Part shown: piece after piece, positions 1 to 29,448 of the stretch
Position numbering within the stretch: the first letter of the stretch is position 1
Layout: each line of letters begins with the position of its first letter
Notes under the pieces: model-generated
Databases searched by the model: none
What the model was told of the DNA's origin: nothing
What the model saw: the letters and a program-made list of their open reading frames with translations, nothing else
Translations under genes and position numbers: made by a program
From: a virus
Length of the DNA stretch: 38,150 bases
Strand: one strand, 5' to 3'
IMG/VR virus record: IMGVR_UViG_3300044949_000869
Span: 1 to 38,150 of that record

Positions 1-134
1 TAGACGCCGACGTCATGCGGCGCCTTGATGCCGATGCGGACGGCGCCGTTCGGCAGGACTTTCACGATGGCGATCTCGATCCCCTTGCTGGGGATGAGGA
101 CTTTCTCGCCCGCTTTCCTTGTCACTACAAGCAT
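1..134 (-). CDS. csrA: CsrA/RsmA-family translational regulator, cut by the window edge
   Basis: Translating the minus strand from the ATG at 134 gives 44 residues beginning MLVVTRKAGEKVLI, with VRIGIKAPHDVGV at the visible end. This matches the CsrA core (M-L-x-L-T-R-K/R-x-G-E near the N-terminus, then V-R-I-G-I-x-A-P). Members are dimers of about 60-70 residues that bind GGA in RNA hairpin loops near ribosome binding sites, repressing or stabilising mRNAs. R6 is present; the second RNA-binding arginine (R44 in E. coli, in the HREE segment) lies just beyond the edge and cannot be checked. Start: GGAG with 7-nt spacing. The gene follows the zinc-ribbon gene by 18 bp on the same strand, so it looks like the next gene of the phage early operon. 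If this is a prophage end it could instead be a host gene, which is less likely given the spacing. Confidence 0.9.
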   Translation of the reverse strand, partial: MLVVTRKAGEKVLIPSKGIEIAIVKVLPNGAVRIGIKAPHDVGV

Positions 135-5021: not shown

Positions 5022-5058
5022 TTATGGCCTCCTGTAGCCTTAGAACACCGAACCAGCG

Positions 5059-11592: not shown

Positions 11593-11946
11593 TCAGGTCT
11601 TGAGGAGGACGACGCACGACACCGCCGTGCCGGCGGCTTGGCCGGCGACGAGTTTCAGCGCTCCGACGCCGTAGGCGGCGTCAGGGAGGGCGTAAACGCG
11701 GGCCTCGGTGGCCGATTGGGCCAAGGTGATGTCGGCCGCACTGCCGCTGGCGTCATAGAGCCGGCCGAACGTGCCGTCTGTCGTGCCGCTGCACCAGAGT
11801 TGAATCGAGGTGGCCGCGGTTGCGCCGGTGCCGAGAAGCACCGCGCCGCCGGCAATGTCGTCCCAGCGAATCGTGGTGGCCGCAGCGGTCGCCGTGGACA
11901 GCGTGACGGGGAGAGCCTTGAACTTCCGCCTGATTTTCGGTTCCAC
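11593..11946 (-). CDS. Small virion-structural-type protein
   Basis: 117 residues, Ala/Thr-rich and beta-strand-like throughout (SIQLWCSG, FGRLYDASGSA, ARVYALPDAAYG, LKLVAGQAAG). The pattern of a strand-rich body ending in VVLLKT is common for decoration or tail-associated proteins of phages of this kind. There is no signal peptide. GTG start with an ideal AAGGAGGTG Shine-Dalgarno. The leader folds into a hairpin with this Shine-Dalgarno in the loop. It lies between dNMP kinase and the holin-like gene. Confidence 0.65.
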   Translation of the reverse strand: MEPKIRRKFKALPVTLSTATAAATTIRWDDIAGGAVLLGTGATAATSIQLWCSGTTDGTFGRLYDASGSAADITLAQSATEARVYALPDAAYGVGALKLVAGQAAGTAVSCVVLLKT

Positions 11947-11949
11947 TCT

Positions 11950-11963
11950 GCACCTCCTTGTGC
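11950..11963 (-). promoter_or_regulatory. GGA-in-loop hairpin over the Shine-Dalgarno of the 11593 gene
   Basis: GCAC and GTGC form a 4-bp stem around the hexaloop AAGGAG, which is the Shine-Dalgarno. The geometry resembles CsrA binding sites. The same loop and stem length recur at 25340-25353. Confidence 0.45.
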
Positions 11964-12004
11964 GTTGCGGGCCTCTATGGGCCTCACGGGGCGTGCTACA
12001 GGGG

Positions 12005-12559
12005 CTATACCACCATTGTAGCGGCCAGTAGCCGGCTCATTGCGGCATCGACGGCGGCCTGGAGCGCCAGAATGCCGCCCCCGTTGACGATCTCGTCGTC
12101 GACGTATTCGTCGGGGATGCCTCGCTCGCTCTCATGGCTCGCCGTCTCGCCATCCAGGACGCCGAAGCCGGGACGCACCACCCGCCACACGACGCCGCCG
12201 CGGGCCTTGATGGCCGCCGCCTCGTTGGGGAAGCGGACGTCGGTGATGCAGAGGTCGCCTCCGGCGGCCTCTGCCCGCTGCATCGTCGCCATGACCCAGA
12301 TTTCGGGATGGATCATGTTTCGGCCCCAGTCGGTGCCGAGGGTCTGAAGGAGCCTCCGGGGCGAGCAACTGATCCACCCCAGCGTGTTCTCCTTCCGGGA
12401 GCGGTCCTGCAACTGCTCAACAGTCAGCCCAGTGATCGCCGACACGGCGTCATAGAGCGGGTCGGCGAACGCTAGCGGCACGAACCGATGCTCCAGGCAC
12501 AACCGCGCCGCAACCGTGTTCTTCCCCGCCCCGGCGGCCCCGCAGAGTCCAATGATCAC
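12005..12559 (-). CDS. Deoxynucleoside monophosphate kinase
   Basis: 184 residues. P-loop GAAGAGKNT (7-15) at the N-terminus, then the region LLQTLGTDWGR typical of phage dNMP kinases, and DVRFPNEAAAI, the conserved lid-side segment. It would phosphorylate dNMPs to dNDPs for phage DNA synthesis. GTG at 12559 overlaps the dCMP deaminase stop (GTGA) and has GAGGAG upstream; the longer frame running to 13150 is a shadow through the deaminase gene. Together with the deaminase it makes a nucleotide-supply pair. Confidence 0.88.
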   Translation of the reverse strand: MIIGLCGAAGAGKNTVAARLCLEHRFVPLAFADPLYDAVSAITGLTVEQLQDRSRKENTLGWISCSPRRLLQTLGTDWGRNMIHPEIWVMATMQRAEAAGGDLCITDVRFPNEAAAIKARGGVVWRVVRPGFGVLDGETASHESERGIPDEYVDDEIVNGGGILALQAAVDAAMSRLLAATMVV

Positions 12560-13059
12560 AGCGTCATCTCCTCGCCGTCGAACTTGATCGTCACCCCCAG
12601 CGGCTCCGCGAGCCACCGCATACTGACGTTCGCCTCGCGGAGCATGGCCTCGGCCTTGACGATGCTCGACGTCCACCGCTCCGGCGTCGCGGCCCGTGGC
12701 TTGACATGGCCGACGACCTCGGTGATCCCGGCCACGATGATCGCCCTGGCACAGTCCATGCAGGCGAACCAGGGGCAGTAAAGCGTCGCCCCCAGCGTCG
12801 GCGTGCCGACGCGGGCGGCCTGATAGATCGCCATCCGCTCCGCGTGTTCGATGTATTCGTATTTCGCCGGCCGCGTGAGCCGATCCGGCGCCGCCCACAC
12901 GCCCGCCGGCACCTTGTTGACGCCGACGCAGACGTAGGCCGCGGCCCGCGGCACCAGGATCGCGCCGTTCTGGGTGTGCATATCGTGGCTCCCCGCAGCG
13001 GCCTCCTGGGCGGCGATGCGGAGCCAGTCGAGCGGTGTGTTGTGTAATTGGGTAGCCAT
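12556..13059 (-). CDS. dCMP/cytidine deaminase family protein
   Basis: 167 residues. The zinc site is complete: H72-A-E74 in EHAERM and C100-x-x-C103 in FACMDCARAII, with E74 the proton shuttle. The fold and length match dCMP deaminases, which make dUMP for dTMP synthesis. No thymidylate synthase is seen in the window. The ATG overlaps the stop of the 57-residue gene (TGATG). A ComE-like or base-modification role is possible but the metabolic role is simplest. Confidence 0.9.
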   Translation of the reverse strand: MATQLHNTPLDWLRIAAQEAAAGSHDMHTQNGAILVPRAAAYVCVGVNKVPAGVWAAPDRLTRPAKYEYIEHAERMAIYQAARVGTPTLGATLYCPWFACMDCARAIIVAGITEVVGHVKPRAATPERWTSSIVKAEAMLREANVSMRWLAEPLGVTIKFDGEEMTL

Positions 13060-13232
13060 CAGTCCCTGACCTCAAGCCATTTCCGCAGCCGCTCGTTCTC
13101 GCCGCGAAGACTTTCGATCTCTTCTGCGGCCGACTCAATCCAGGACTCAAGAACGAACTCGTAGCATCCGATGTCCTCGGTACGATGTTTCAGCAGGTCG
13201 CGGAGGACTTGAAGGATGTCTTTTTTGTTCAT
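13059..13232 (-). CDS. 57-residue coiled-coil protein
   Basis: A short gene beginning MNKKDILQVLRDLL and ending ERLRKWLEVRD. The C-terminal half (ESAAEEIESLRGENERL) is a leucine-zipper-like coiled coil. It is supported by exact coupling on both sides: its ATG overlaps the phosphoesterase stop (ATGA) and its stop overlaps the deaminase ATG (TGATG). No family recognised. Confidence 0.7.
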   Translation of the reverse strand: MNKKDILQVLRDLLKHRTEDIGCYEFVLESWIESAAEEIESLRGENERLRKWLEVRD

Positions 13233-14386
13233 TCCGCCCCCGCAACGTGCATCGACACCAGCCCGCCCTCGGGGCGGTACAGGAACGTCTCCATCGCTCG
13301 CCGCGAGCCGATGAATCCGTTCTCGGCGTGCCAGTCATCCGGCGGGCAGAGGGCCGGGGCCGTCCTGACGATCACGCCGTCGATTGTTTCGATGGGGCGT
13401 TGCCACTCGGCGGCCTGCGAGTGGTAGTGGCCGGTGTGCCACTCCCGGCAGACAGACTGGCTCCAGTGCCGCGGCTGCTCCAGCGCCATGATCTGGCCCA
13501 GTTTCCGCTTGGCCTTGTGGCCGTGGCAGAAGCCAATCAAGTTTTTGCCGTGTGTCGCGTACTGCCGGCCCGTCCACGCCCCAGACACGGTGACGCGGCC
13601 GTCGTTGCGAAACCGTTCCGCCAGCACTCGCTGAAAGGCCCAACTCAAGGTTTCGTCGTGGTTTCCGTTGACGACCAAGACGTCTGTCGGCGCCGTCGAG
13701 GCCGACCGCTCGACGATTTCCAGCAGGCAGTCCCAGCCGATCTGGAGCATCTTCTGAAGCCGGCCGTCCCGCTCCAGTTGCGTGCCGGAGGTGGTCTGGC
13801 CCCGGGGGTTGTCGTAGTGCAGTAGATCCCCCAGGAACGCGATCGTTCGGCGGGCCGGCTTCATGGCGTCGCCCACGGCCAGCAACTCGCCCGACGCCTG
13901 CCGCACTACTTTCTCGGCGATGTAGAGATCGTAATTGCTCCCGCCCGTCGTTCCCTGGTAGGCGTAGTTGCCAAAGTGGACGTCGGACACGACCACGACT
14001 TGCCAGAGGCCGCTGCGCTTCGCCGGCTTCGGCACGGCCTTGCGGCGCAGGTCTTTCGTCGCCGCCTTGATCATCGCCTCGACGCACTCGCGGACCCCAG
14101 GCCCAGCCTTGGGCTTGAGGCGAACGAAGACGCGGTGGAGTTCGACGGTCCCGCCACTTCCGTCGCCGCACTCCCACTTGGTCGCTTCAGACGAGGCGAC
14201 TTCGTATGCCTGCATATCCGCGCCGATATGCCGCAGGAGGTCTTCGACGGTCTTGATCCGCCGCGAGGTGCTTTTCGCCTCCAGCGTGTCGCCGTCCTGC
14301 CGCTGCGTGACCTGCTCGGAATCCGCAGCCGGCGTCTCCGCAGGCAGCGTCGAGAGGATCGCAGCCTTCAGCCCCTTTGCAGCCAT
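13229..14386 (-). CDS. Calcineurin-like metallophosphoesterase
   Basis: 385 residues. All metal-site motifs are present in order: SDVHFG (134-139), GDLLHYD (186-192), NGNHDE (240-245), CHGHK (287-291) and TGHYHS (318-323). The N-terminal 120 residues form a separate, less conserved region. Members act as nucleases or phosphodiesterases; phage relatives are thought to process DNA or nucleotides, but the substrate cannot be read here. GGAG precedes the ATG. It overlaps the small gene before it and the one after it. Confidence 0.9.
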   Translation of the reverse strand: MAAKGLKAAILSTLPAETPAADSEQVTQRQDGDTLEAKSTSRRIKTVEDLLRHIGADMQAYEVASSEATKWECGDGSGGTVELHRVFVRLKPKAGPGVRECVEAMIKAATKDLRRKAVPKPAKRSGLWQVVVVSDVHFGNYAYQGTTGGSNYDLYIAEKVVRQASGELLAVGDAMKPARRTIAFLGDLLHYDNPRGQTTSGTQLERDGRLQKMLQIGWDCLLEIVERSASTAPTDVLVVNGNHDETLSWAFQRVLAERFRNDGRVTVSGAWTGRQYATHGKNLIGFCHGHKAKRKLGQIMALEQPRHWSQSVCREWHTGHYHSQAAEWQRPIETIDGVIVRTAPALCPPDDWHAENGFIGSRRAMETFLYRPEGGLVSMHVAGAE

Positions 14387-14703
14387 GCTTCGACTCCTGG
14401 GAATCCGATCTTGCAGATGCCGCGCTCGTTGAGTTGCTTGGCAATCGCCTTCGCGAGCGTGCGTCGCGGTGTCTTGATGGCGCCGGCCCGAAACTGCCGC
14501 TTGATCTCGTCCAGTTCCGCCCTGGCGTCCGGCGCGACGTTGTCGATCCAGTAGCCGATGCCGTGGTAGGTGTCCGGGAGCGTGGCGACGACGGCGTCAA
14601 GCAGACTCGTCGCGGAGGCTCCAGAGGACGCGGGAGATGTCGCGGGCGGCCTCGGTAACGTGTTCTTCGCTGGCCGTGGGGAACGAGACATGGATGCACT
14701 CAT
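14368..14703 (-). CDS. Small protein, possible DNA-binding C-terminus, start uncertain
   Basis: Up to 111 residues. The C-terminal 50 residues (TLAKAIAKQLNERG, GFPGVEAWLQRG) look like a helix-turn-helix that pairs a recognition helix with VEAWL. The first 31 residues are Ser/Pro/Arg-rich and overlap the HExxH gene by 107 bp; they may be untranslated, but no ATG/GTG/TTG lies between the overlap and the conserved part, only a CTG near 14604. The ATG at 14703 does have GGAG at 10-nt spacing. It overlaps the phosphoesterase start by 19 bp. Confidence 0.55.
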   Translation of the reverse strand: MSASMSRSPRPAKNTLPRPPATSPASSGASATSLLDAVVATLPDTYHGIGYWIDNVAPDARAELDEIKRQFRAGAIKTPRRTLAKAIAKQLNERGICKIGFPGVEAWLQRG

Positions 14704-14881
14704 GCAGGATCGTCTCCAGGCGGGCGCGGCCCGTGAGCCGCTCGTCGATCAGGATCTTCCGCGGCATCTTCGGGTTCTTCGCATCCGGCAAGTACGCCCA
14801 CCCGGCCGCCCTGCCACGCAACCGCGTGAAGCGGAGGAGCCATTTGACGCCGTGGATGGTGAAGTGGTGGTCACCGGGCAT
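14597..14881 (-). CDS. HExxH zinc-binding protein, SprT/phage metalloprotein-like
   Basis: 94 residues. HECIH at about 63-67 in a hydrophobic helix (LETILHECIHV) followed by ASEEHVTEAARDI gives the zincin pattern with a possible third Glu ligand. The rest is short strands (MPRKILIDERL). It resembles the compact 'HExxH' proteins common in phages, which are usually unassigned; proteolysis or a purely structural zinc site are both possible. It has no clear Shine-Dalgarno. Confidence 0.68.
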   Translation of the reverse strand: MPGDHHFTIHGVKWLLRFTRLRGRAAGWAYLPDAKNPKMPRKILIDERLTGRARLETILHECIHVSFPTASEEHVTEAARDISRVLWSLRDESA

Positions 14882-14902
14882 ATAGATATGTTGCCATGTT
14901 GC

Positions 14903-15286
14903 CTATTGGTTGTCCACGGCTACTTTGCCTATCTTCTCGCGGGCGCGCCGGCAGGCTTTCCTAACCAGCCACTTCGCCCCAAGTTCGCTCCACGGCAGAA
15001 TCGTCTGGCGCTTGGCGAGTCGCTTGGAATGCTCCGTTCGCATGGCCTTGATGATTTCCGGCATCCCCGGCCCCTCGCACCAGTCTGGGCCGTTGGTGTT
15101 CATCTTCTTCGCCATTGCGTTGCACGAGCAGCCGAGCGTGGCGACGATCCCGAGCCAGTCCTTCAGGAGCGCCTTGAGTTCCGTCCCCGGCCCGGTTTCT
15201 GGCATATGGGCCGCTGCCGGCGCGCCGGTGTGGCAGTCGCGGTAGACGGCCTCGCCGTTCTCGTAGGTTTTTTCGACGCAACTCAT
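14903..15286 (-). CDS. Cys-containing protein of unknown function
   Basis: 127 residues. The centre reads GCSCNAMAKKMNTNGPDWCEG, a cluster of three Cys with M-N-x-x-G-P that recurs in small proteins next to tail-fibre genes in related phages, followed by a basic helical C-terminus (KRLAKRQTI, RKACRRAREKIGK). It may bind a metal. It lies 2 bp after the Cys-rich tail gene and has no obvious ribosome binding site, so it is probably coupled to it. Confidence 0.62.
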   Translation of the reverse strand: MSCVEKTYENGEAVYRDCHTGAPAAAHMPETGPGTELKALLKDWLGIVATLGCSCNAMAKKMNTNGPDWCEGPGMPEIIKAMRTEHSKRLAKRQTILPWSELGAKWLVRKACRRAREKIGKVAVDNQ

Positions 15287-15288
15287 GG

Positions 15289-17700
15289 TTATGCAATCGT
15301 GAGCGTGGATGTCGCCGAGTTATAGGTGCCTGTCTTCGTCGTTCCCGTCAGCGTAACGGTCCCGTAACTGTTGACAGTAGGTCCGGCAAGCAGGACATAC
15401 GCTGCGCCGGACGACGGCTCTCCGGAAAACGCCACCGTTAGCGTGTTGCTCGTAAACGTCGCCGAGGTCACGAGGCCGCCGGGATTGGTGATCGGCTCGT
15501 TGACGATCACCGTGCCGCCAGTGATCGACATACTCCCAGTCATGCTGTTTTGGTTGAGCGTCAGCGTGCCGTCTTCATTGACAATGCTGCCCGCGCCAGA
15601 CAGGTCGGCGACTGTGAGCGAGCCGCTGCCGTCCAAGGTCAGCGTCCCTGTGACGGTCAGTTCGTCCAAGGACTGCGACGCAGGCGGGTCGCCCGGTTCC
15701 TCCTGCACTGTGAGCGTGGCGGATGCGGCAGTCACGGCGGTCGCTGGATCAATACCGAATGGCGGACTCCTCACCAAGCGAAGCGTGGTTCCGGCTGAAA
15801 GCACTATTCCGCCGCCGGCCGACAGGACTGTCTCTCCAACAACCGCAGTTCCGTATCGAATAAATACCGTACCGCTCGTAGAGAATGTCCCGTCATAATT
15901 CTGCAACATAACTGTGCCAGCGAAGCCGTTGGCGCCGATGGTCACGTTATGCGTGGCGGGGGCAAGGTTTGTGGCGCCAGCCCAGCGGTTCTCAAAGTAA
16001 ACTGTGCCGCCATCCGCGGCCACCAGCGTCACATCGCGGCTCATTCGGACATTGCCGCCGGAGAACGTCGCCGTACCGGAAGTGTTGGCGCCGCCGATCA
16101 GAACCACCTGCGCCCCCGCCGATGCCCTCACATCAAAACTTGCAGTCGTATTGACGTTTTGTTCCAAAAGTAGCGCCGCGAACCCCCCTGCCCCTGCGGC
16201 CGTGTCCCCGATTGCGATCGTACTTCCGACCGCTGCGGCATTTGCGACCTGCATGGTGCCGCCCTTGACGGTCAGCGTGCCAAAGAAGTCCCTGCTGGTG
16301 GCGTTCATTCTCCACAACCCGATGCCTTCTTTGACAACGTTGCAAACGTTGCTGCCAGCGGGGTCGCCGATTCGTCGGATTTCGTTGAGGTGCGTGCTGG
16401 AGCCGGCCAGCGTCAGCGTCCTGTCGCAGTTGCCAGCGTGCGTGACGGCACTCGTCAGCACGAGCGGCCCCATGCCGTCTGCGCGAATCTCGCCGTCGCC
16501 TCGCATTACGATGTTGGCGTTGCTCGTGTGGCCTGGGCCGTCGTAGGTCATCACCGTCTTGCACTCGTACAGGCAGTTGCCCAGCCAGATTGTGATGTTG
16601 TTGCAGCCAGAGAACTTCAGCGTCTCAAGGTCGGTCGCCAGTTGATCCCAGCACACCTTGATCTTGAGGTCTTGGAAGTTGGAGCCGCACGGCACCGGCT
16701 CGACGTTGAATGCGTCCCAGCACAACGGAAACACAATCGTCTCGCGGACGCACCGATCGTATGGCGTCGGGATATACAACTCGCCGTGAACGCGGACGGC
16801 TGAACTAGATTCAAGTTCCACCCGCACCCAAACCGTATCGCTGATCGGCGGCATCCGCTTAGTGCGTGGCTGGTAGAATGTCAGGCCAGCGGCCTTGCTG
16901 GTTTTTTCTTCGCAGCAGCAGGCGTCAAACGGCGGTCGGCAACGAGCGTCCTGCGGAAACCCCGGCTCCGTGCATCCAAGGCACTCCGTCGTTCCTACGC
17001 CCTGGAACTCGCCGCCGACTCCGTCGCAGTTCGCCTTCGTTGTCGGCGACGACTCGTGCAGGACGTAGCCGTTTTCCTCGTCATAGACGCAACACGCCCC
17101 CACGCATGTGGCTTCGTCGCAACTGTTGCCCACGCCGCGAATGAGCGGCGCAGGACACGTCTGCTGGTCAATGACTTCACACGATTCCCCATCTGGGTCA
17201 CAGCACGGCACCGGACACCCGCGATCACAGCAGCCGCCAAGAACCTCACCGGCGCATTCGGAAGGCTTCTTGTTCTGGCAGTTGCCGTTTTCGCAGCACC
17301 GGCCCGGACACTCCCCCCACTGGTCGCGAAACACAATGCCGTCGCACGCTGGGCAGCACAAAGACGCCGCGACGTTTTCGGCGCCCTCAATGCCGCCGTT
17401 CTGCGCGGGGTCCATGAACTCCGGAGGCACGCACCCGCAGCACTGATCGACCCCGTCACCCCACCGCAGGAACGTCCAACCCTCCTCGCATGGTGCGTCG
17501 GGGTCGTTCTCTGGACTCCACAGTTCGTCGCCGCAGCAGTACCCAGGCTCCGTCTTCCACTCGTCGTTGCAGCACTCGCCCTCGTCGCAGTGGCACTCTC
17601 CGTTGCAGCAAGTGCCGCCACGAACGCACTCGCACCAGAACCGAAATGTTTTGACAATCAGGCCGTTGAACACGGCCAACGCGCCGTTGATTACGAACAT
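15289..17700 (-). CDS. Cys-rich and autotransporter-repeat tail spike or adhesin candidate
   Basis: 803 residues in two parts. Residues 23-263 contain 40 cysteines, including CC pairs and one GACC repeat unit (202-240: GACC ... C ... GGEFQGVGTTEC), a repeat found in planctomycete surface proteins. From about 400 the chain turns into Gly/Thr/Val-rich beta repeats with the autotransporter-associated pattern (KEGIGLWRMNATSRDFFGT and TVKGGTMQVANA, then repeated 'GTLTL' units), likely a beta-helix. No signal peptide or outer-membrane barrel is seen. It lies in the distal tail cluster, so a host-binding spike is likely. Disulphides or metal sites must form without export, which is odd. Confidence 0.75.
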   Translation of the reverse strand: MFVINGALAVFNGLIVKTFRFWCECVRGGTCCNGECHCDEGECCNDEWKTEPGYCCGDELWSPENDPDAPCEEGWTFLRWGDGVDQCCGCVPPEFMDPAQNGGIEGAENVAASLCCPACDGIVFRDQWGECPGRCCENGNCQNKKPSECAGEVLGGCCDRGCPVPCCDPDGESCEVIDQQTCPAPLIRGVGNSCDEATCVGACCVYDEENGYVLHESSPTTKANCDGVGGEFQGVGTTECLGCTEPGFPQDARCRPPFDACCCEEKTSKAAGLTFYQPRTKRMPPISDTVWVRVELESSSAVRVHGELYIPTPYDRCVRETIVFPLCWDAFNVEPVPCGSNFQDLKIKVCWDQLATDLETLKFSGCNNITIWLGNCLYECKTVMTYDGPGHTSNANIVMRGDGEIRADGMGPLVLTSAVTHAGNCDRTLTLAGSSTHLNEIRRIGDPAGSNVCNVVKEGIGLWRMNATSRDFFGTLTVKGGTMQVANAAAVGSTIAIGDTAAGAGGFAALLLEQNVNTTASFDVRASAGAQVVLIGGANTSGTATFSGGNVRMSRDVTLVAADGGTVYFENRWAGATNLAPATHNVTIGANGFAGTVMLQNYDGTFSTSGTVFIRYGTAVVGETVLSAGGGIVLSAGTTLRLVRSPPFGIDPATAVTAASATLTVQEEPGDPPASQSLDELTVTGTLTLDGSGSLTVADLSGAGSIVNEDGTLTLNQNSMTGSMSITGGTVIVNEPITNPGGLVTSATFTSNTLTVAFSGEPSSGAAYVLLAGPTVNSYGTVTLTGTTKTGTYNSATSTLTIA

Positions 17701-18194
17701 GCGGTTTCTGTCGATATGGGCAGCGAGAGCGTCGCCGTCTCGCCGGGGTAGGGAATCCAGGTCAGGATGCGCGTGAACTCGATGGCGGCCGTGGTCATAG
17801 TGACGGAGACGAACACGGCTGTCTCGTGGTGCTGGACGTTGAGGAGATGCCAGTCGGCCGTGGCTCCGGCTGGTTCAAGAGAAGAAACCTTGCCGATGTA
17901 GGCAACCTGTTCGTCGCAGGCGTCGCCAATTGTAAACAACTGGTTCGTGGCGACGACGGTGTTCGGGGTCGAAGTCACGCCCTGAAACGTCAGGGTCTTG
18001 GTCTCGTTGATCGTCCACGAGCCGGTGAAGGTGCAGGCGCGGATCTGCTTTCCAGAAGACGCAGCCGGCATTTCCTCAAACCGCGTCGGAATCCGGGACG
18101 TACCGTTCTGGTACGGCGTCGAGTCGACCCGCTTCACCACGCTGATGATGCGGTCGGTCAATACCGGGCCAAACGTGTTGCCCTTCTCGGCCAT
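17691..18194 (-). CDS. Tail-region protein of unknown function
   Basis: 167 residues, strand-rich, starting MAEKGNTFGPVL and containing IISVVKRVDSTPY. The middle (FTGSWTINETKTLTF) and end (TRILTWIPYPG) suggest a beta-sandwich. It sits between the 350-residue tail protein and the Cys-rich spike and overlaps both by 1-10 bp. Probably a distal tail or baseplate part; no named family. Confidence 0.62.
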   Translation of the reverse strand: MAEKGNTFGPVLTDRIISVVKRVDSTPYQNGTSRIPTRFEEMPAASSGKQIRACTFTGSWTINETKTLTFQGVTSTPNTVVATNQLFTIGDACDEQVAYIGKVSSLEPAGATADWHLLNVQHHETAVFVSVTMTTAAIEFTRILTWIPYPGETATLSLPISTETACS

Positions 18195-19246
18195 CAGACA
18201 ATGTCCTGGATGCGAACGCCCATGTTCACGAAGTTATTGCCGAATGGAATCGCCCCTTGCGTGATGTATTTCTTCGTCAGCACGCCGTTGGCCTGGACGT
18301 CACGCGGGGTTCCGTCGAGGTTGAGGGCGACGGGCAACGCAGACGGCCGCTGCATAAACCTCTTGCCGTTGAGGCTCGCAATCGGAATTACCGCCCGCAC
18401 TTTCTTGTTGGCCGTGTTTTCTGTGAGCGCGAACGGAACGACCACCTCGCCGTCAACGTGCTGCAGGTTCAGCCCCTCGTTGTATACATTTGCGCCGTTG
18501 AGATTCTTGTTGATGATGTTGAAGCCCTCGATCACCACTCGTTTCCACCATCCGTCGTATGGATTGATCGCAAACTCATATGTTCTGGTGAAGCCTCTGT
18601 AGATCAGCGTTCCGAACGCTTCCACGGTCGGGCGGACGTTCACACCGCGCAGCATACAAGTGTACGGGGCAACATCCATGCCAAGGAACGTAAGCCGGTC
18701 GGAGTTGATAAATCCAGACTCCGTAAGCCGACTTGTGGGATAGTTGTCGAACTGCTCAATGGAAATCGTCAGCATGGACGAGAAGTTCGTAACGCCGTCG
18801 TACCTGTCTTTTACGGGATTGACAGCCGGCGCAAACTGAGGCTGGACGGGGTTGCCGTCCTCGTCTTCGATCTCTGCCCATTGCGTTGCCGGCGTCTCGA
18901 CGAGACTTGACGAAATCGAGAACTTGGCTGGGCGAATGTCAGGCGGCTGGTTGTTTGGGTCGTTTGCGGTGCTGCTTCCAGGCGTTGCGCGGTAGGTCGC
19001 CGTCACGACGCGCACGACACGAGACTCGCCCTCGGCTCGCTCCGAGAACGATACGCACGGGAGCGTGCTGTTGACGGGGTGCATATCCCCGATCTTCACG
19101 CCGATCGCAGACTGGATGTCGTAGCCCTCGGACGGCGAGTTCAGGATGATTCTGAACGTCCGCACCGAGACGTCCGCAACGGCGCCGCCGTCAGCCGATC
19201 GCTCGTTAGACCCGCCGGAGGTGATTTCCTTGACTAACTTTGGCAT
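18194..19246 (-). CDS. Distal tail/baseplate-type protein
   Basis: 350 residues, mixed strands with aromatic-rich segments (FINSDRLTFLGMDVAPY, NPYDGWWKRVVIEGF). There are no enzyme motifs. Position two genes downstream of the tape measure is the usual place of distal tail and tail-associated proteins in siphoviruses. AGGG is present before the ATG. The assignment is by position. Confidence 0.62.
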   Translation of the reverse strand: MPKLVKEITSGGSNERSADGGAVADVSVRTFRIILNSPSEGYDIQSAIGVKIGDMHPVNSTLPCVSFSERAEGESRVVRVVTATYRATPGSSTANDPNNQPPDIRPAKFSISSSLVETPATQWAEIEDEDGNPVQPQFAPAVNPVKDRYDGVTNFSSMLTISIEQFDNYPTSRLTESGFINSDRLTFLGMDVAPYTCMLRGVNVRPTVEAFGTLIYRGFTRTYEFAINPYDGWWKRVVIEGFNIINKNLNGANVYNEGLNLQHVDGEVVVPFALTENTANKKVRAVIPIASLNGKRFMQRPSALPVALNLDGTPRDVQANGVLTKKYITQGAIPFGNNFVNMGVRIQDIV

Positions 19247-19248
19247 CT

Positions 19249-19617
19249 TCAGCCCTCCGTGATGTCTACCCGCAGCCTCGTGCCGGCCGCGCCAACCGCG
19301 GAGTAGTTAGTGCCGGCCGCCATCCGAAAGACCTGCGGCTCGCCGGCGCGCAGCGTGCAGAACGGCGCGAACGATCCGCCCGCCGTGATACCGATCTGGG
19401 CCGTGGACGAGGTGGCCGTGGATAGGTTTCGCAGGAAAGCCAAGCCGACGCTCGACAGGTTGGCCGTTGGGATAGAGACTGCGTTCGTCGTGAGCGTGAG
19501 CGTGAGCGACTGCAGTCCAACGCTGTTCATGGTGGCCGTGATGTTCGACACCGCCACCTGATTGACGAGGTTCTCTTTGTTGACGGTCAGAACGATTCCG
19601 TAAGAAATATCTGGCAT
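19249..19617 (-). CDS. Small beta-rich structural protein
   Basis: 122 residues with alternating Thr/Ser/Val strands (ITATMNSVGLQSLTLTLTT). The C-terminal half (VGLAFLRNLSTATS ... GEPQVFRMAAGTNY) follows the same layout as the two proteins at 26819 and 27329: a strand ending L(R/K)NLS, a short loop, then G-E/G-F strand. It may be a distant paralogue. AGGGGGT precedes the ATG. It lies directly after the tape measure. Confidence 0.6.
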   Translation of the reverse strand: MPDISYGIVLTVNKENLVNQVAVSNITATMNSVGLQSLTLTLTTNAVSIPTANLSSVGLAFLRNLSTATSSTAQIGITAGGSFAPFCTLRAGEPQVFRMAAGTNYSAVGAAGTRLRVDITEG

Positions 19618-19619
19618 GA

Positions 19620-22600
19620 TTACCCCCTGATTTCGACGATGGCGTTTTGGTCTTGCTTGCGCAGTTCATCGAGCGACTGCTGCAGAATCTCTGTCTGCTT
19701 CTGCAGTTCGATGAGATTGACGTCACGATTCGGGTCGTCGCCGCGGAGCAAGCGGTTGAGTTCCCGCTGGCCGTCCATGGTGTTGGCGTCGGCGACATTG
19801 AGCGCCGCCCGCGACGGCCCCTGAAGCAGCGCGTTGAGCCGCTCCTCGCGGAATCCCATCACGAGCGGCGCAACCTGCTGCGCCCTCTCAAGTGCCAACT
19901 GGTTCATCTTTTCGTTCCGCATGGCCTGCGGTGCGTTGATGCGATTCATTTCAGCGACAAGATCCCGTGCCTGCTGGGCGGACTCCCTGGCCGCCCGCTG
20001 GGCTGGAGTCATCGCCAGTTCGCGGCCGCGGTCCTCGGCAGACTGCCGCTGCTCGATCCTTGTGCTGTTGTCCCTGGCCGCACGAACGGACGGCGATTCC
20101 TCGATCTGACGGTCTACCTGATCCTGGAGGCGCCGCCGTTCTTCGATGAGGCGCTGCCTGTCTTGCGGCGTGCCGGCCCCGGAGGCCAACTGCTCGTCGA
20201 TCTCGCGGAGCCGCTTGAACGTCTGGTTGAGAGGGTTGTTGGCATCTTGCGCAAGCCGCTCAAGGCGGTCTCGCTCGCTGGCGACGGCCTCTTCCACCTT
20301 TCTGTTGGCGGCTCTCTGCTCCTCGACGTTCTGCCTTGCGCGATCCCTGTCTGCCTGCGTCGGCAGTGCCGCGCCGCGGCCTGGGGCAAGTCCTCGCCGG
20401 CGGACGTCGTCGTCGCGCTGCTGCGCTGCCTGCAGATTGCTCTCGGCCTCGGCCGTGGCGCGGGCAAGGGCTTCCGTAAACCGCTTCAGGCCAAGCGTGG
20501 CGGCCTCGATCGCTTTCATCTCCTCATTGATGGCCGCGATCTCTCGGTCTGCGCGCCTGCGAACGAAGACGCTATCTGGCCGCGCGGAAACTTCCGAATC
20601 CACCTTCGCCCTTCTGGCGTCAAGTTCCCTGATCCGGCGAGCAAGTATGCCCTGGTCTGCGCCAGCGGCCTGAAGATTTGCCTCTGCCCGCTGCCTTCTC
20701 GCATCCAGAGTCGACTGTGGGTCAAGGATCCGGCGCTGCTCCAGTTCGCTGGCCTGGGCCTGGGCTAGCAACCTCTGCTCCCTGCTTCGCTCGATGCGCG
20801 CTCTTGCTTTGCTTACTCGCTCGTCGCGAAGCGCGGCGTCCTCTTGCGTCAGGCCGCTTTCGGCAAAGTCTTTCTGCGCGGAGCGAATCTCGTTTTGCGC
20901 AGAGTCGATCTCTTCGGCGAGACTGTCGAGAAGCCCCTGGAGGGAAATCGCGGTGGGTACGCTAGATTTGATTGCGTCGGCTACCTGCCTCTGCGACTCT
21001 TCGATGGCAATGGCAGCGGCGTTCGCCGACTTGAAGATGTTCTGAATTGCCTTGTCTGCCTGCAGGCTCGCCGGAAGCCGCAGCGACTCAAGCAGCGACG
21101 TCAGCGCCGTAACATCTTCTCTCGCATTCGTTATTTCGACTGCGTCGCCGGTAAAGAAGTCGAGGGCGCCGATATTGCGGGAGGCGGTTTTCTGCCGCTC
21201 TCTGATTCTCTGCTCAACAATACGCGACAGCGCGAGCGGATCTGATCCGGCGGCGTCGAGTTCCCTTGCCGCGCGATCTCTCCTTGCCGCTGCCTCTCTT
21301 CTGGCCTGCTCATCAACCAGACGCACCGGGAACAGCCCGCCCTTTTCTTCAGAGAGCCTTGCGAACTCATTGTCTCGGATGCCTTCGATGACTGACTTGC
21401 GAACCGCATCTGCGGAAGGCGCGGCGGCGCCAACCCTAGCACGGATTGCGGCGCGTTCCTTTCGGCGAGATTCCTCGATTTCCCGCAGGATCGCTACACG
21501 CTGGCCGCCGTCAGAGGTGGCGTCAAGACGCTTTCTAAGACCCGCTTGCGTCGCTCGCTCGCTCTGTACCTGCGGATCGAGGAACGAAACGCGCTCCTCG
21601 CGGAGTTCTTTTTGCTTCCTGTCTATGTCGGCGAGTTCTTTTGTGAATGCCCTCGTAGACTGCCCAGCCGAAGAAAACGCCTTGCGGGCAATGGAGTCGC
21701 CGAGCGACTCAAACGCTTGCGCAAGACCCTCGACAAGCGACTTCTGCCGGGACAGGGAGTCATTCAGGGCTTTCGCCTTGTCGTCAGCCAACTCCGAGCC
21801 GGTTGCATACTTAAGGATCGACGTAATGACCTGACCGCCGATTACGGCCGACAGGCCGAGGAACAAGCCGGTCGTTGCCGAGAGTCCCGGAATCAGGCCG
21901 GACTGGCCAAGCAGCAATCCGAGTTGCGTGATGTTGTTGCCTACCGCGCGGAGTTTGTATTCCAGGCCGCCCGTCGCCGAGATGAGGTCATCAATCGCGA
22001 AAAGCCCCTGCTGAAACGCCAACTGCGCCACGGCGGCGCCGCCAACGCCGAACGAGCCGCGGTTCTTCAGGTTTCGCTCCGCAATGGCCCTGACCCTGTC
22101 GACGCCCATTCCCGCAGAGCCGTCGGCTCGCGACGAGTCAGCCACTGTGTTCAAAAATGCGTCGCTGCGCTTTCTAGCCGCGAATTCGACGGCTTTCCTG
22201 GCGCGATTTCTGCTCTCCTCACTCTTGAACTGGCCGTCGGCTATTTTCTGCTGCTTTATGGCGAGTTTTTCAAAGAACGCCAAGTCGCGCTCGATGGCCT
22301 GCTCGACCGATCGGCGGCCCACAGTGTTTCCGGACTCAAAGTTGCCGGCCAGTTGCCGGCCAGTTGCGATAAAACTCGCAGCGCGCTCAAGGTCTGTTCC
22401 GAGTTTATCGCTGCGGCTTCCGGAGATGGTCAGGAACTGGTCAAACCTCTTGCGGGCAGTTTCGGCAGACTTGAGTTTCGATTCAAACTTGTCGATCACC
22501 GGCAGCAGCGACTCAAGTTTTGCCTTGTAGTTATCAAGCCCCAGCGTGCCGCCGGCGGTCGTTTTGGCATCAAACGCGGAGTCAAGAGTGGCGTTGGCGT

Positions 22601-23966
22601 CTGCGGCCAGTTTTCTGATGCTGTCGAACTCGCCCGCTATTCCTGCGTCTTTTAGTCCTTTCACTCTGGACGAAAGATCTCCCACCCTGCCGGCAACACC
22701 GCGATTGAACTCCTCCCTAGCGAGAGACAGATTCTCACGAAGGCCAATTGCCGCCAGCCTGCGAGTGCCGGGATTTCTCTCCGACAAGATCTGGTCTCGT
22801 TGCTTTTGGGCGTCCTCGCGAATCTTGGAGATTTCTCTTTCTGACTCCGTCCTGATGAGGGCGTCAGCCTTGCCGAACCCTTCTTTGCCGAACGCCTTTG
22901 TGGCGTCCGCTGCGGCAAGCGCATCTATAGCCAATTTGGCCTTCTTGGCCGACACCTCGCTGCGGTTGAGTTGCTCGATCACTCGCCCAACGGACGCGAT
23001 CAGACCCTCAAATCGCTGGTCGTCTCCATCTCGCAGCCTCGCCGAAAGTGTGCCAAACTTGTCTGTTAGTTGCTCGACCTGCGACACGGCCTCGGGCGAT
23101 ATGATCTGCTTGATCTCGGCAGAGGAAATCTCCCTCCTGAACGACATATTGGTCGCTTCCTGGATGCGAACCAGGGCGTCAAGTCGCTGCTGCGCCACTC
23201 CTCTTGCCGTCAGCGTCGCAGGATTTTCTCCTTCATTTGCGACCCGAATCTGCGCGGCCGAAAGCCTTGCCGCGGCGCGCTCGATGAGGTCAGCGTTTCG
23301 CTCTGACCTCACAGACAGGTCGCCAAAGACCTCGCTCCTGGCTCTCGCAGGAATTTCCGATGCCTTCTTCCGCAGCGCCAGCGCGTCTGTCAGCGCGCCT
23401 TTGGCTCGTGGATTAAAGAAGTCCGCGCCGGTGTTTTTTGCCTGCAGGCTACCCGCCAGCCGCTTGAAGTCATCGGAGATGGCCGTGGCCCTTCCAAGGG
23501 CAACAAGCCTGCGTCGCAGGGCGTCGATCCGCTGTCCTGCGGCGTCGAACGTCGCCGTGCCTTCGCCAATCTCCGCGAAGAGGCGCTGAAATCCGTCCTG
23601 AATCCTCGACAGTTCCGGATACAGGCTCGACTGGACGGATGTGGCGAACCCTTCGATTTGATTCTTGAGGGCGGTCAGCGGCTTGCCGATGTCCTCAAGG
23701 ACGCGAAACTGATCCTCAAGTCGGCGTGTATTCGGGAGTCCGGCCCCTACTCCCCTCGACTGCAGGTCTTCAATCTGCCGCAGCGTCCGCTGGAACCGCT
23801 GCAGCCTAGTCAGCGTGCCGTCGAGTGCCTGCGTGTTGAGGTTGAACTGGATGCCGCGTGCCTGGCGCGCAAAATCCTGCAGTTCACGCCGGGACTCGCC
23901 AATGCGGCGAGTGAAGTCCTGCGTGTTCGCAGTCAGAACGGCAGAGATTTTGCCGAGCAGGGCCAT
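19620..23966 (-). CDS. Tail tape measure protein
   Basis: 1448 residues, the longest gene. Mostly Arg/Glu/Gln/Ala-rich coiled coil with one hydrophobic region near residues 680-740 (LGLLLGQSGLIPGL, GLFLGLSAVIGGQV), the usual tape-measure pattern. It starts MALLGKISAVLTANTQDF, also typical. It sets tail length during assembly and may be injected to cross the membrane. No lysozyme or peptidase domain is fused, unlike many tape measures of phages that cross thick peptidoglycan. Start at 23966 with AGGA 8 nt upstream in a hairpin loop. Follows the G/GT chaperones as expected. Confidence 0.92.
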   Translation of the reverse strand: MALLGKISAVLTANTQDFTRRIGESRRELQDFARQARGIQFNLNTQALDGTLTRLQRFQRTLRQIEDLQSRGVGAGLPNTRRLEDQFRVLEDIGKPLTALKNQIEGFATSVQSSLYPELSRIQDGFQRLFAEIGEGTATFDAAGQRIDALRRRLVALGRATAISDDFKRLAGSLQAKNTGADFFNPRAKGALTDALALRKKASEIPARARSEVFGDLSVRSERNADLIERAAARLSAAQIRVANEGENPATLTARGVAQQRLDALVRIQEATNMSFRREISSAEIKQIISPEAVSQVEQLTDKFGTLSARLRDGDDQRFEGLIASVGRVIEQLNRSEVSAKKAKLAIDALAAADATKAFGKEGFGKADALIRTESEREISKIREDAQKQRDQILSERNPGTRRLAAIGLRENLSLAREEFNRGVAGRVGDLSSRVKGLKDAGIAGEFDSIRKLAADANATLDSAFDAKTTAGGTLGLDNYKAKLESLLPVIDKFESKLKSAETARKRFDQFLTISGSRSDKLGTDLERAASFIATGRQLAGNFESGNTVGRRSVEQAIERDLAFFEKLAIKQQKIADGQFKSEESRNRARKAVEFAARKRSDAFLNTVADSSRADGSAGMGVDRVRAIAERNLKNRGSFGVGGAAVAQLAFQQGLFAIDDLISATGGLEYKLRAVGNNITQLGLLLGQSGLIPGLSATTGLFLGLSAVIGGQVITSILKYATGSELADDKAKALNDSLSRQKSLVEGLAQAFESLGDSIARKAFSSAGQSTRAFTKELADIDRKQKELREERVSFLDPQVQSERATQAGLRKRLDATSDGGQRVAILREIEESRRKERAAIRARVGAAAPSADAVRKSVIEGIRDNEFARLSEEKGGLFPVRLVDEQARREAAARRDRAARELDAAGSDPLALSRIVEQRIRERQKTASRNIGALDFFTGDAVEITNAREDVTALTSLLESLRLPASLQADKAIQNIFKSANAAAIAIEESQRQVADAIKSSVPTAISLQGLLDSLAEEIDSAQNEIRSAQKDFAESGLTQEDAALRDERVSKARARIERSREQRLLAQAQASELEQRRILDPQSTLDARRQRAEANLQAAGADQGILARRIRELDARRAKVDSEVSARPDSVFVRRRADREIAAINEEMKAIEAATLGLKRFTEALARATAEAESNLQAAQQRDDDVRRRGLAPGRGAALPTQADRDRARQNVEEQRAANRKVEEAVASERDRLERLAQDANNPLNQTFKRLREIDEQLASGAGTPQDRQRLIEERRRLQDQVDRQIEESPSVRAARDNSTRIEQRQSAEDRGRELAMTPAQRAARESAQQARDLVAEMNRINAPQAMRNEKMNQLALERAQQVAPLVMGFREERLNALLQGPSRAALNVADANTMDGQRELNRLLRGDDPNRDVNLIELQKQTEILQQSLDELRKQDQNAIVEIRG
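22341..22367. repeat. 11-bp tandem repeat inside the tape measure gene
   Basis: GTTGCCGGCCA occurs twice in tandem (22341-22351, 22352-22362) and starts a third copy. The unit is not a multiple of three, so gain or loss of a copy would shift the frame. Confidence 0.7.
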
Positions 23967-23967
23967 G

Positions 23968-23981
23968 CTTCATCCTTGAAG
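23968..23981 (-). promoter_or_regulatory. GGA-in-loop hairpin over the tape-measure Shine-Dalgarno
   Basis: CTTCA and TGAAG form a perfect 5-bp stem around the tetraloop AGGA. The core CAAGGATG matches the centre of the CsrA consensus. It also contains the stop codon of the GT chaperone frame. Confidence 0.55.
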
Positions 23982-24317
23982 TTTCTGTAGTTCCGCAAAC
24001 ATCTCGTCCGGCGTCTGATGGGGCTTTGCCTGCGACGGAATAAAGATGTTTTCCTCTGGCACCCGCTTGTAGTTCCCACTCGCCGCCATCACCGTCCGAC
24101 ACAGTCGCGCTGTCTGCCACCAGGAGTCAGGCAGCGGCCACCGCTGGTCGTAGGCATACCACTCACTCAACTCCGCGGAGTCGCACTCCGTCAGCAGCCG
24201 CTTGACTGTCATGCCTAGGGCCAACGCTAGGCGGAAATAGAACCTCCGCTCTGGTCGGTCAGTGAATCTTTTCCCAGGCTTTCCACAGCCTCCGACGTCA
24301 GGGCGTTGTGGCTCCAC
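23970..24317 (-). CDS. T part of the tail assembly chaperone GT, reached by -1 frameshift
   Basis: This frame has the features of lambda T-type partners: RRFYFRLALALGMTVKRLL followed by ELSEWYAYDQRW. It overlaps the G gene by 91 bp in the -1 frame and has no proper start of its own; the region before RFTD is shadow. Slippage on GGGAAAA joins G residue 111 directly to RFTDRPERRF, giving a 210-residue GT protein. GT proteins bind the tape measure and tail tube during tail assembly. It should be annotated as one ribosomally slipped CDS covering 24601 to 23970. Confidence 0.9.
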   Translation of the reverse strand: MEPQRPDVGGCGKPGKRFTDRPERRFYFRLALALGMTVKRLLTECDSAELSEWYAYDQRWPLPDSWWQTARLCRTVMAASGNYKRVPEENIFIPSQAKPHQTPDEMFAELQKLQG

Positions 24318-24601
24318 GCCTTCTCAAACAGCCGGTTGATCACCACGCTCGACTTCTTGCCGAGCAGGTCGAGGTCGGCATCGGCGAACAGGCGGTCGCC
24401 GGAGTCGTCGCACAGCGTCAGCAGGAGGAAGCGGACGCGGAACGACTTCATCTTCTGTTCGGCGTAGGACTCCTCAAACGAGTCCCGCTCCAGGCCAGAG
24501 AGCGTCTTGACGTAGACGTCACCGCCCCACTCGGGAACCTTGATCGCGTCGCTCAACCGAACGTCCTTCGCCGCCAGAATCGCAGCCTTGCTCAAAGCCA
24601 T
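24227..24601 (-). CDS. Tail assembly chaperone G
   Basis: 124 residues, alpha-rich, beginning MALSKAAILAAKDV with LERDSFEESYAE and FRVRFLLLTLCDDSG, the usual pattern of gpG-like tail chaperones that accumulate as the unshifted product. It lies between the tail tube and the tape measure gene, the conserved place. Near its 3' end is a canonical slippery heptamer that gives the GT fusion. Confidence 0.88.
   Translation of the reverse strand: MALSKAAILAAKDVRLSDAIKVPEWGGDVYVKTLSGLERDSFEESYAEQKMKSFRVRFLLLTLCDDSGDRLFADADLDLLGKKSSVVINRLFEKAWSHNALTSEAVESLGKDSLTDQSGGSISA
24269..24275 (-). promoter_or_regulatory. Programmed -1 frameshift slippery site GGGAAAA
   Basis: In the G frame the bases read G GGA AAA, the X XXY YYZ form, close to lambda's GGGAAAG. 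After slipping, the next codons give RFTDRPERR, which continues into the conserved T domain. Zero-frame translation ends 14 codons later at a TAG. Confidence 0.9.
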
Positions 24602-24604
24602 CTG

Positions 24605-24985
24605 TCAGGTTCCCTGGTAGTCGGTGAAGCGAAAAGTCGCAGACCCGCGCACCAACTCACCAACGCGGGCCTCCGTGTTTGCAGACTCAAGAATCGCGCG
24701 TTTCGACACCGACCATGTCGGCGACGAAAACGTCAACTGGCCGATGCCGCGGACAATTGCCGCAACGTCGCCGGTGGCCGGCGTGGCCAAGAAGTCCAGC
24801 GACACGCTGCCGCCAGACAACTCGCCGGTCGGCACAAGAACGGAGTACCCCGCCGGGTCTGCTGGAGACGTCATGTCGACGACCTCCGCGACCGGCGTCT
24901 CGACGCTGATGCCGACGACGCTGCCCTGGAAACTGCCCAGCGAACCGGCAAACGTGAAGGTCGCGCCGTGAGCAGATAAGGCCAT
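24605..24985 (-). CDS. Tail-tube-like protein (paralogue 1)
   Basis: 126 residues. Starts MALSAHGATFTFAGS and ends GELVRGSATFRFTDYQGT, matching the next gene at both ends (MGTSAQGLTFTFGGS; GDFVRGSATFRLA). Strand-rich and placed right before the G/GT chaperones, as the major tail protein is in siphoviruses. The pair arose by duplication and has diverged strongly in the middle. Either could be the main tube subunit. The Shine-Dalgarno is in a hairpin loop. Confidence 0.75.
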   Translation of the reverse strand: MALSAHGATFTFAGSLGSFQGSVVGISVETPVAEVVDMTSPADPAGYSVLVPTGELSGGSVSLDFLATPATGDVAAIVRGIGQLTFSSPTWSVSKRAILESANTEARVGELVRGSATFRFTDYQGT

Positions 24986-24987
24986 CG

Positions 24988-24999
24988 GACCCTCCGGTC
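24988..24999 (-). promoter_or_regulatory. GGA-in-loop hairpin before tail paralogue 1
   Basis: GACC and GGTC form a 4-bp stem with tetraloop GGAG, which is part of the Shine-Dalgarno. It is a candidate CsrA site. Confidence 0.4.
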
Positions 25000-25000
25000 G

Positions 25001-25333
25001 TCAGGCGAGCCGGAAGGTCGCAGAGCCTCGCACGAAGTCGCCGACCGAGCCGCCGAGGGACGCAGACGAGATCGTCGCGTTGCCGCTGAACGACATGGGG
25101 CCGGAGATCGACAGGGCGCCGGACACGCCGGCGGTGAGGATCGTCGAGTTGATGTAGTCGATCTGCACTTCCCGGTCGGTCGCGAATCCGCCAACGAAGA
25201 TGCGGCGGGCGTTGGGGGCCACGCCGAGGTGCGTCGCGTCGAGGAGGTCTTGGGTGTCATTGACCTGGACGGAAGTGACGGTGACGCCAGAGCCACCGAA
25301 GGTGAACGTAAGTCCCTGTGCCGAAGTTCCCAT
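25001..25333 (-). CDS. Tail-tube-like protein (paralogue 2)
   Basis: 110 residues of alternating beta strands (VTVTSVQVNDTQDLLDATHLG, REVQIDYINSTIL, GPMSFSGNATI). The DATHLG segment followed by a conserved C-terminal RGSATFR resembles small tail-tube proteins. It comes first in transcription of the pair, just after the tail terminator gene. A strong AAGGAGG lies in a hairpin loop upstream. Confidence 0.75.
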   Translation of the reverse strand: MGTSAQGLTFTFGGSGVTVTSVQVNDTQDLLDATHLGVAPNARRIFVGGFATDREVQIDYINSTILTAGVSGALSISGPMSFSGNATISSASLGGSVGDFVRGSATFRLA

Positions 25334-25339
25334 TACGCC

Positions 25340-25353
25340 GCGCCTCCTTGCGC
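25340..25353 (-). promoter_or_regulatory. GGA-in-loop hairpin before tail paralogue 2
   Basis: GCGC and GCGC form a 4-bp stem around AAGGAG, the Shine-Dalgarno. Same loop as at 11950-11963. Candidate CsrA site. Confidence 0.45.
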
Positions 25354-28455: not shown

Positions 28456-28646
28456 TTGTGCCTCTTCTTTCCTTGCGGCTGGACGGCCTTCTCGGCGCGA
28501 AGTTCCATGGCGGCGGTCTCTTCGTCGCGCTCTTCGACCTGCCGGACGAGGCCGCGGGCGAGCAGGACTCTGGCCATGCCGTCGCCCCAGTCAAACTCTT
28601 GGCCGACCTTGTAGCCGCCGAACTCCTTGACGATTTTGACTCTCAC
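28452..28646 (-). CDS. Small head-region protein
   Basis: 64 residues from GTG, beginning MRVKIVKEFGGYKVGQEFDWGDGMARVLLARGLV. A single beta-rich domain with a charged tail ending GKKRHK. The GTGA overlap with the glycosyltransferase stop fixes the start. Such K-x-G-x-x-F...ARxLxxRGLV proteins are common just before gp6 in phages and are unassigned; a head-fibre base or accessory role is possible. Confidence 0.72.
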   Translation of the reverse strand: MRVKIVKEFGGYKVGQEFDWGDGMARVLLARGLVRQVEERDEETAAMELRAEKAVQPQGKKRHK

Positions 28647-29371: not shown

Positions 29372-29375
29372 CGTG

Positions 29376-29393
29376 CGCTCCTTGTGAGGAGCG
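29376..29393 (-). promoter_or_regulatory. Hairpin that pairs the glycosyltransferase Shine-Dalgarno
   Basis: CGCTCCT and AGGAGCG form a perfect 7-bp stem with loop CACA on the minus strand. AGGAG, 6 nt before the ATG, is fully paired, so translation should be low unless the stem opens. The loop-stem edge reads CACAAGGA, close to the CsrA consensus. The rest of the 77-bp gap holds nothing clear. Confidence 0.6.
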
Positions 29394-29448
29394 GGCGCGC
29401 ATCCTTGCGCCTTTGTCGGCCGTCAATGGCCGTCCCGCTTATGCAGGA

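Follow-up and report, generated by a model that had tools for sequence, protein, structure and literature searches.

The virus record IMGVR_UViG_3300044949_000869 was analysed over its positions 1 to 38,150 (the window, i.e. the whole stretch of 38,150 bases). Four of its leaders, those of csrA, of a gene for a 117-amino-acid (aa) protein, of the tape measure gene and of the tail tube gene, display the GGA of the Shine-Dalgarno sequence inside an A-N-GGA-X hexaloop. The architecture shared by the four is a six-base loop starting with A, with GGA at loop positions 3–5, on a perfect stem of 4–5 pairs (Table 1). We regard these hairpins as probable CsrA/Rsm-type translational operators, which in the csrA-carrying group of related phages are most likely read by the phage CsrA. 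Phage csrA genes were already known; the novelty lies in a conserved set of predicted CsrA-type operators on the phage's own genes.

RsmE complexes define the high-affinity site as a stem capped immediately by an ANGGAX hexaloop, in which A and GGA are invariant while N and X may be any base, and CsrA/RsmE bound to a GGA over the ribosome-binding site blocks docking of the 30S subunit (PMC4005645). The CsrA/RsmE operators of hcnA, RsmZ and flaA are likewise A-N-GGA-X hexaloops on a stem, and those of hcnA and flaA overlap the ribosome-binding site as the phage sites do (PMC4005645, PMC4894983). Compared to these systems, the sites of the window are located on phage genes, one per Shine-Dalgarno sequence seen, and the window has no Rfam match, including to antagonist RNAs, at the gathering score. 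Judged from the sequence, the features of a high-affinity site are found here: the hexaloop on a stem, the fixed A, and a stem kept as a structure for csrA and the tail tube and partly for the tape measure.

The frequency of such leaders was determined in 33 records of the csrA-carrying group. Genes were called with a coding-potential caller, each GGA located 6–18 bases before a start was taken, and removal of near-duplicates left 532 of 1048 sites. The null expectation came from chimaeric sites that combine the 5' flank of one leader with the 3' flank of a different leader. When loop length and GGA position were varied over 28 combinations (GGA itself being required by the search), the loop of six with GGA at 3–5 ranked first, with 13 of the 532 sites against 2.36 expected (p = 1.3e-6), and was the only geometry to keep an excess after correction. 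Loops of eight with offset 3 (8 against 2.37, p = 0.003) partly re-read the same stems one pair out, and loops of three yielded 6 against 2.05 (p = 0.018). The 27 other geometries combined gave 53 observed and 59.4 expected. Loop position 1 was A in all 13 matches, though in 183 of the 532 sites overall, so that A-first sites account for 13 matches against 0.84 expected and sites with another first base for none against 1.57. The remaining free positions varied (N: 7 A, 4 T, 2 C; X: 10 G, 2 T, 1 A). After removal of the window and the records L119 and L120, 11 matches remained against 2.39 expected. The geometry was also more frequent at leader sites (13/533) than at coding non-leader sites (93/11115, p = 0.001), and when only A-first sites are compared the values are 13/185 and 37/2128 (p = 9e-5). 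An excess over controls, which the sequence-only reading had named as the test of its proposed regulon, is hence present in the csrA-carrying group.

No such excess was found in 19 records of unrelated csrA-carrying phages (0 against 0.87 expected), and F116, analysed with its annotated starts, likewise had none (0 against 0.18), which sets the group apart from other phages with csrA. The GC-rich phages D3, YuA, D3112 and TM4, which lack csrA, yielded 0 against 0.77, and 1 against 0.93 with annotated starts.

The csrA product of the window passes the curated cut-off of PF02599 (42.3 bits compared to 27). Record L120 carries the whole CsrA of 56 aa, identical over the 44 residues present in the window. 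Among solved structures, the phage CsrA profile matches 2jpp best (E 1.3e-14), a translational repressor and carbon storage regulator homologue which we take to be RsmE. An arginine near the β5-H1 junction of CsrA is conserved and contacts the GGA (PMC7366521). One alignment column, beyond the cut end in the window, is an arginine in six full-length relatives and was equated with this residue by eye.

In E. coli, csrA is among the repressed CsrA targets and has several sites around its Shine-Dalgarno sequence (PMC4066749), whereas the phage csrA has a single compact hexaloop over it, with 4–5 pairs in 29 of 32 group loci. In an alignment restricted to group csrA leaders (17 distinct windows), compensatory change was observed at all five pairs. 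Overall, 94.1% of the cells were paired compared to a shuffled mean of 69.2, a value reached in none of 500 shuffles, and both sides had changed in 22 cells compared to 5.4 in shuffles. The five stem pairs fall within the six best of all column pairs. Stems include GCTGA/TCAGC, CGCAA/TTGCG, AGCAA/TTGCT, AACGG/CCGTT and TCCGA/TCGGA, while the loops are AAGGAG, ACGGAG, ATGGAG, AAGGAT or AAGGAC; in L143 the three inner pairs are retained. Two csrA records found via the capsid gene after the pattern had been fixed both fit it, one of them with a new stem (acgga-AAGGAC-tccgt). None of 18 csrA loci outside the group showed the ANGGAX geometry at four or more pairs; one of them (L133) has a 5-bp hairpin with the GGA shifted one place further.

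Membership in the group was checked afterwards via shared gene content. Of the 32 group loci, 30 each share at least two other proteins with the window, while 17 of the 18 loci outside share none and L158 shares two. The csrA search covered the 80 first relatives except L033, L037, L038 and L047. The two remaining group loci, L130 and L131, share no other window protein and were grouped by their CsrA alone, which is 94% identical to that of G030 and is preceded by a covarying hexaloop leader. csrA and its operator may therefore move together. Upstream of csrA, the element TAGGCTAC recurs in many group phages (leaders L118–L167) amid changing surrounding sequence. In the window it is located at 165–173 (minus strand), within the last codons (V-G-Y) of the upstream gene, so that its conservation may be at the protein level or at the DNA/RNA level.

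The tail tube hairpin is located in the gap between two called genes. In a structure comparison, the modelled protein matched tail tube proteins and related proteins of the tail, with a best E of 8e-4 at probability 1.0. All 30 distinct leaders of orthologues with at least 69% identity carry the hexaloop, 28 with GCGC/GCGC stems amid changing flanks and two with TGAA/TTCA; this count excludes 20 of 50 distinct leaders with at most 42% identity, among which L076 has a 5-bp hexaloop and L079 a hexaloop with a G-T pair. The hairpin is present in 8 of 8 large csrA-carrying records. In the sister clade (clade B), 17 of 18 distinct tail tube leaders have a hexaloop on a different stem (CGTCC/GGACG or GGGCG, TTCCC/GGGAA, GTCT/GGAC), 8 of them when a G-T pair is counted, and it is lost in L210. 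All 14 window-type leaders in this two-clade comparison have the hexaloop; of the 69 leaders, 37 with low identity, mostly paralogues from the same loci and all without hexaloop, were left out. Across both clades, all four pairs show compensatory change and 95.8% of the cells are paired, in an alignment of 18 of 36 distinct windows from which near-duplicates and two paralogues were dropped by hand while L210 was kept. Three sister-clade loci (L202, L204 and L213) have several tail-tube-like paralogues each, with the hexaloop on the best orthologue only.

The 117-aa protein is probably a capsid-decoration-like virion protein, judging from its predicted structure. Capsid or neck chains of the Agrobacterium phages 7-7-1 and Milano are similar in structure to its model, the best Foldseek match being a modest one to a capsid chain of 7-7-1 (E 1.1e-3, template modelling score 0.64). 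Eight of nine distinct leaders of the gene have a (C)GCAC/GTGC(G) stem of 4–5 bp with A, C or G at loop position N, and the leader in L113 has three pairs. The hexaloop is present in 6 of 6 large csrA-carrying records in which the gene was found.

The tape measure hairpin overlaps the upstream stop codon and is therefore partly fixed by coding. Two of its four pairs show compensatory change, with 83.9% of the cells paired in 14 distinct GGA-bearing windows. Since 12 of 35 leader rows were left out of this alignment (ten without GGA in range; L043 and L072 with the GGA outside hairpins), these values describe only leaders that have the site. In G005 and G015 the hairpin needs a G-T pair. Further targets occur in single lineages, namely the primase (three stem types), a small gene adjoining csrA and several short genes. 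Primase hexaloops of 4–5 bp were found in G034, L157/L159, L136 and L167; a second start placement puts the starts in G034 and L136 elsewhere, without a hexaloop there. The primase leader of the window itself was rejected as a CsrA site with only 2 bp. Among the 11 group records examined, leaders of the capsid, portal, terminase, exonuclease and chaperone genes were found in 4 to 8 each, and none has such an element. The tape measure is thus a variable member of the predicted regulon, the core of which consists of csrA, the tail tube gene and the 117-aa gene.

The sequence-only reading had proposed a CsrA regulon based on four main hairpins besides that of csrA and three weaker ones, all of which are read on the minus strand. 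The four are present in the sequence, including the tetraloop hairpin GACC-GGAG-GGTC, and the regulon is supported by the excess and by the conservation in csrA-bearing relatives. Its membership differs from the one claimed, as csrA, the tail tube gene and the 117-aa gene form the core, the tape measure is variable, and 24605 and the weak sites drop out. The tetraloop does not have the CsrA geometry, it is a perfect hairpin in close kin only, and in the predicted fold it does not form, its GGA being paired elsewhere. The weaker sites (5026–5039, 5513–5523 and 8881–8891) have just three pairs each and other loop geometries, and were discarded. The restriction to late genes was not upheld either, since the primase and small genes join the set in other csrA-carrying phages. 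In RNA folding, the hairpins of csrA, the 117-aa gene, the tape measure and the tail tube are part of both the minimum-energy and the centroid structures. None of the five leaders folds with an unusual energy (z −1.5 to +0.8), and the z-scores are uninformative; the case thus rests on geometry and conservation, not on stability.

Table 1 Features of the window discussed in the text (pLDDT, predicted local distance difference test)
Feature	Positions	Strand	Remarks
csrA	3-134	-	44 aa, 3' end cut by contig end; PF02599 42.3 bits, E 4e-12, open frame
csrA leader hexaloop	136-151	-	GCTGA-ACGGAG-TCAGC over csrA Shine-Dalgarno; predicted autoregulatory operator
117-aa beta protein	11593-11946	-	AlphaFold mean pLDDT 83.4
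117-aa gene leader hexaloop	11950-11963	-	GCAC-AAGGAG-GTGC over its Shine-Dalgarno
Tape measure protein	19620-23966	-	1448 aa; named by length and place after tail chaperone; open frame
Tape measure hairpin	23968-23981	-	CTTC-AAGGAT-GAAG (equally CTTCA-AGGA-TGAAG) over Shine-Dalgarno; overlaps upstream stop codon
Tetraloop hairpin	24988-24999	-	GACC-GGAG-GGTC, loop GGAG; rejected as CsrA site
Tail tube protein	25001-25333	-	110 aa; AlphaFold mean pLDDT 73.5
Tail tube leader hexaloop	25340-25353	-	GCGC-AAGGAG-GCGC over Shine-Dalgarno, between two called genes

The window contains 46 called genes, 44 of them on the minus strand. Profile matches identified the terminase, portal, head protease, major capsid, head-tail connectors and tail chaperone as well as an exonuclease, helicases and a primase-polymerase, while the tail tube was named by fold. 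The tape measure has no match in PHROGs. Among the isolated phages in the collection none is close: window positions 13800–38150 have no DNA match, the tape measure has no protein match and the terminase reaches at best 43%. The tail chaperone frame (24227–24601) overlaps the next frame (23970–24317), an arrangement also seen in phages that use programmed frameshifting upstream of the tape measure gene. The leader of the gene at 28643–29371 can pair its Shine-Dalgarno sequence within a stem (29372–29401, minus strand; CTCC...GGAG), which is a different type of structure. One of the two plus-strand genes is an open frame of 285 aa (7715–8572).

Several results weigh against a regulon read by phage CsrA. 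Strictest dereplication lowers the excess to 4 against 0.78 (p = 0.0085). A cruder leader finder based on open reading frames, later replaced by the coding-potential gene caller, gave a weaker signal for the group, 5 against 1.44 (p = 0.016), and also yielded 3 against 1.01 in unrelated csrA-carrying phages and 2 against 0.23 in distant kin; with this finder csrA-less phages gave 0 against 0.66, and a match in F116 was discarded since it is not at an annotated start. A test on single genomes gave p values below 0.05 in five of 11 relatives (including two closely related to the window), was borderline in G005 and G034 and not significant in G015, G019, G026 and G018. The csrA hairpin is lost in a lineage that carries csrA (G019/L123/L124, of which L124 is G019). 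The tape measure site is absent in G019, G026 and G030, which carry csrA, and broken in G034; G026 and G030 types have just a look-alike over the tape measure start codon (TGCCA-GGGA-TGGCA), which may be a replacement or chance. For the window alone, stems of at least four pairs (loops of 4–6) occur at 5 of 28 leader GGA sites. Exchanging the 5' and 3' flanks between leaders gives an expectation of 1.0 (p = 0.0035), while the rate at all coding-strand GGAs, a weaker control, raises it to 2.3. Finally, csrA was found in none of nine clade B records of 37–97 kb, and a sensitive csrA profile had no match in 25 clade B records and loci (best E 0.36), yet the tail tube operators persist there.

The last point bears on which CsrA reads the hairpins. 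On the side of the window, csrA was found in all seven records of at least 40 kb from a chaperone search and in four of five more from a capsid search. The fifth, G100/L246 (56 kb), lacks it, and its single tail-tube-like row (36% identity) has no hairpin, nor does any leader hexaloop occur in the 21 kb examined. The clade B record G050 has hexaloops on the tail tube gene (with a G-T pair), on a homologue of the 117-aa gene (52.6% identity) and on a third gene. As the tail tube and G050 117-aa hairpins occur without a detectable phage csrA, phage CsrA need not be the sole or original reader. It is thus a real possibility, which we place somewhat below even, that host CsrA reads the operators, tying the translation of virion genes to the Csr state of the host, and that the phage csrA mainly manipulates the host, e.g. 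its CRISPR-Cas system; phage RsmA has been proposed as an anti-CRISPR (PMC8450108). The closest terminases in the genome collection are those of two Planctomycetota metagenome-assembled genomes with two csrA each, and csrA is present in 24 of 59 genomes of the phylum (G132 and G156 have 9 and 17 csrA matches). With terminase identities of only 42–43%, assignment of the host to Planctomycetota remains a guess, which weakens this explanation. Moreover, it is the csrA-carrying group that shows the strong excess and the wider target set (csrA itself, primase, small genes), while clade B as a whole has 3 hexaloops against 0.85 expected (p = 0.054), and a csrA leader that is itself an operator is expected under self-control. 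Phage CsrA is accordingly the likeliest reader in the csrA-carrying group and host CsrA probably the reader in the sister clade; both may act.

The remaining explanations dispense with CsrA. RNA structure alone could set translation, with the Shine-Dalgarno sequence single-stranded in the loop or as a thermometer-like element, and the location over ribosome-binding sites, the nature of the tail tube gene as a high-copy gene and the modest folding energies would fit. We consider this improbable, since the surviving excess is confined to the NNGGAN geometry, A is always at position 1 and the base beside the GGA varies. An invariant A with a varying N fits CsrA contacts, not anti-Shine-Dalgarno pairing, and csrA itself is a target. 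A structural protein of the phage that binds the hairpins in the manner of coat proteins would fit the presence of two virion or virion-like genes among the core targets. It is very improbable given that csrA, primase and small genes carry the same hexaloop on stems unrelated to one another and that what stays invariant is the element recognised by CsrA. Least credible of all is an artefact of chance or composition, chosen post hoc among GC-rich leaders. GC-rich DNA often forms 4-bp stems, the all-GGA control gives 2.3 expected against the five window cases observed, and chance probably accounts for the tetraloop hairpin as well as for the three weak sites. For csrA, the tail tube gene and the 117-aa gene, chance is contradicted by the excess, the specificity of the geometry, the controls, the compensatory change and the later-found records, while it may still account for single-lineage sites such as 24605.

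Taken together, we favour CsrA/Rsm-type operators. In the proposed mechanism, the ribosome-binding GGA would be displayed in the A-N-GGA-X hexaloop on its short stem, where a bound CsrA dimer would shield it from the 30S subunit. Binding and repression by CsrA, like the identity and timing of the acting CsrA, are what we infer from the conserved hairpins. Phage CsrA would limit its own synthesis through the csrA leader and meter translation of a small regulon, i.e. the tail tube and the 117-aa virion-like protein, with the tape measure, primase and small genes as variable targets. In the sister clade without detectable csrA, the same virion-gene operators would be read by host CsrA. For the broader proposal that the lineage built a self-limiting CsrA circuit on csrA, tail tube, virion-protein, tape measure and replication genes atop older operators read by host CsrA, we see about an even chance.

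As of 2020, csrA had been found in 30 of 2517 phages (PMC7366521). Carriage of csrA is shared with F116, Burkholderia phages JC1/DC1 and Vibrio phages, and in the published reports cited here the roles of phage CsrA/RsmA are host-directed or put down as unknown (PMC7366521, PMC8450108, PMC9144972, PMC12038007). Action of phage CsrA on phage genes was not reported among the matches listed in the open-access literature. In the Pseudomonas phage F116 (L168), an early gene matches CsrA and a second gene, in the structural module, is annotated as CsrA-like (16229–16600, 33363–33569); neither these two genes nor its genome shows leader hexaloops.

Phage mRNAs with a textbook CsrA site kept by compensatory mutation give the phage csrA a testable function and allow prediction of its targets gene by gene. 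If the reading is true, phage csrA would be a viral switch for timing and stoichiometry acting on phage mRNA, and its main role would not lie in acting on the host or against CRISPR. The presence of operators in sisters that lack csrA points to an order of events, in which virion genes answered to host CsrA first and the phage later took over the regulator. In this family of uncultured bacterial viruses, the hairpins suggest that CsrA serves the virus to control how much of its own proteins is made.

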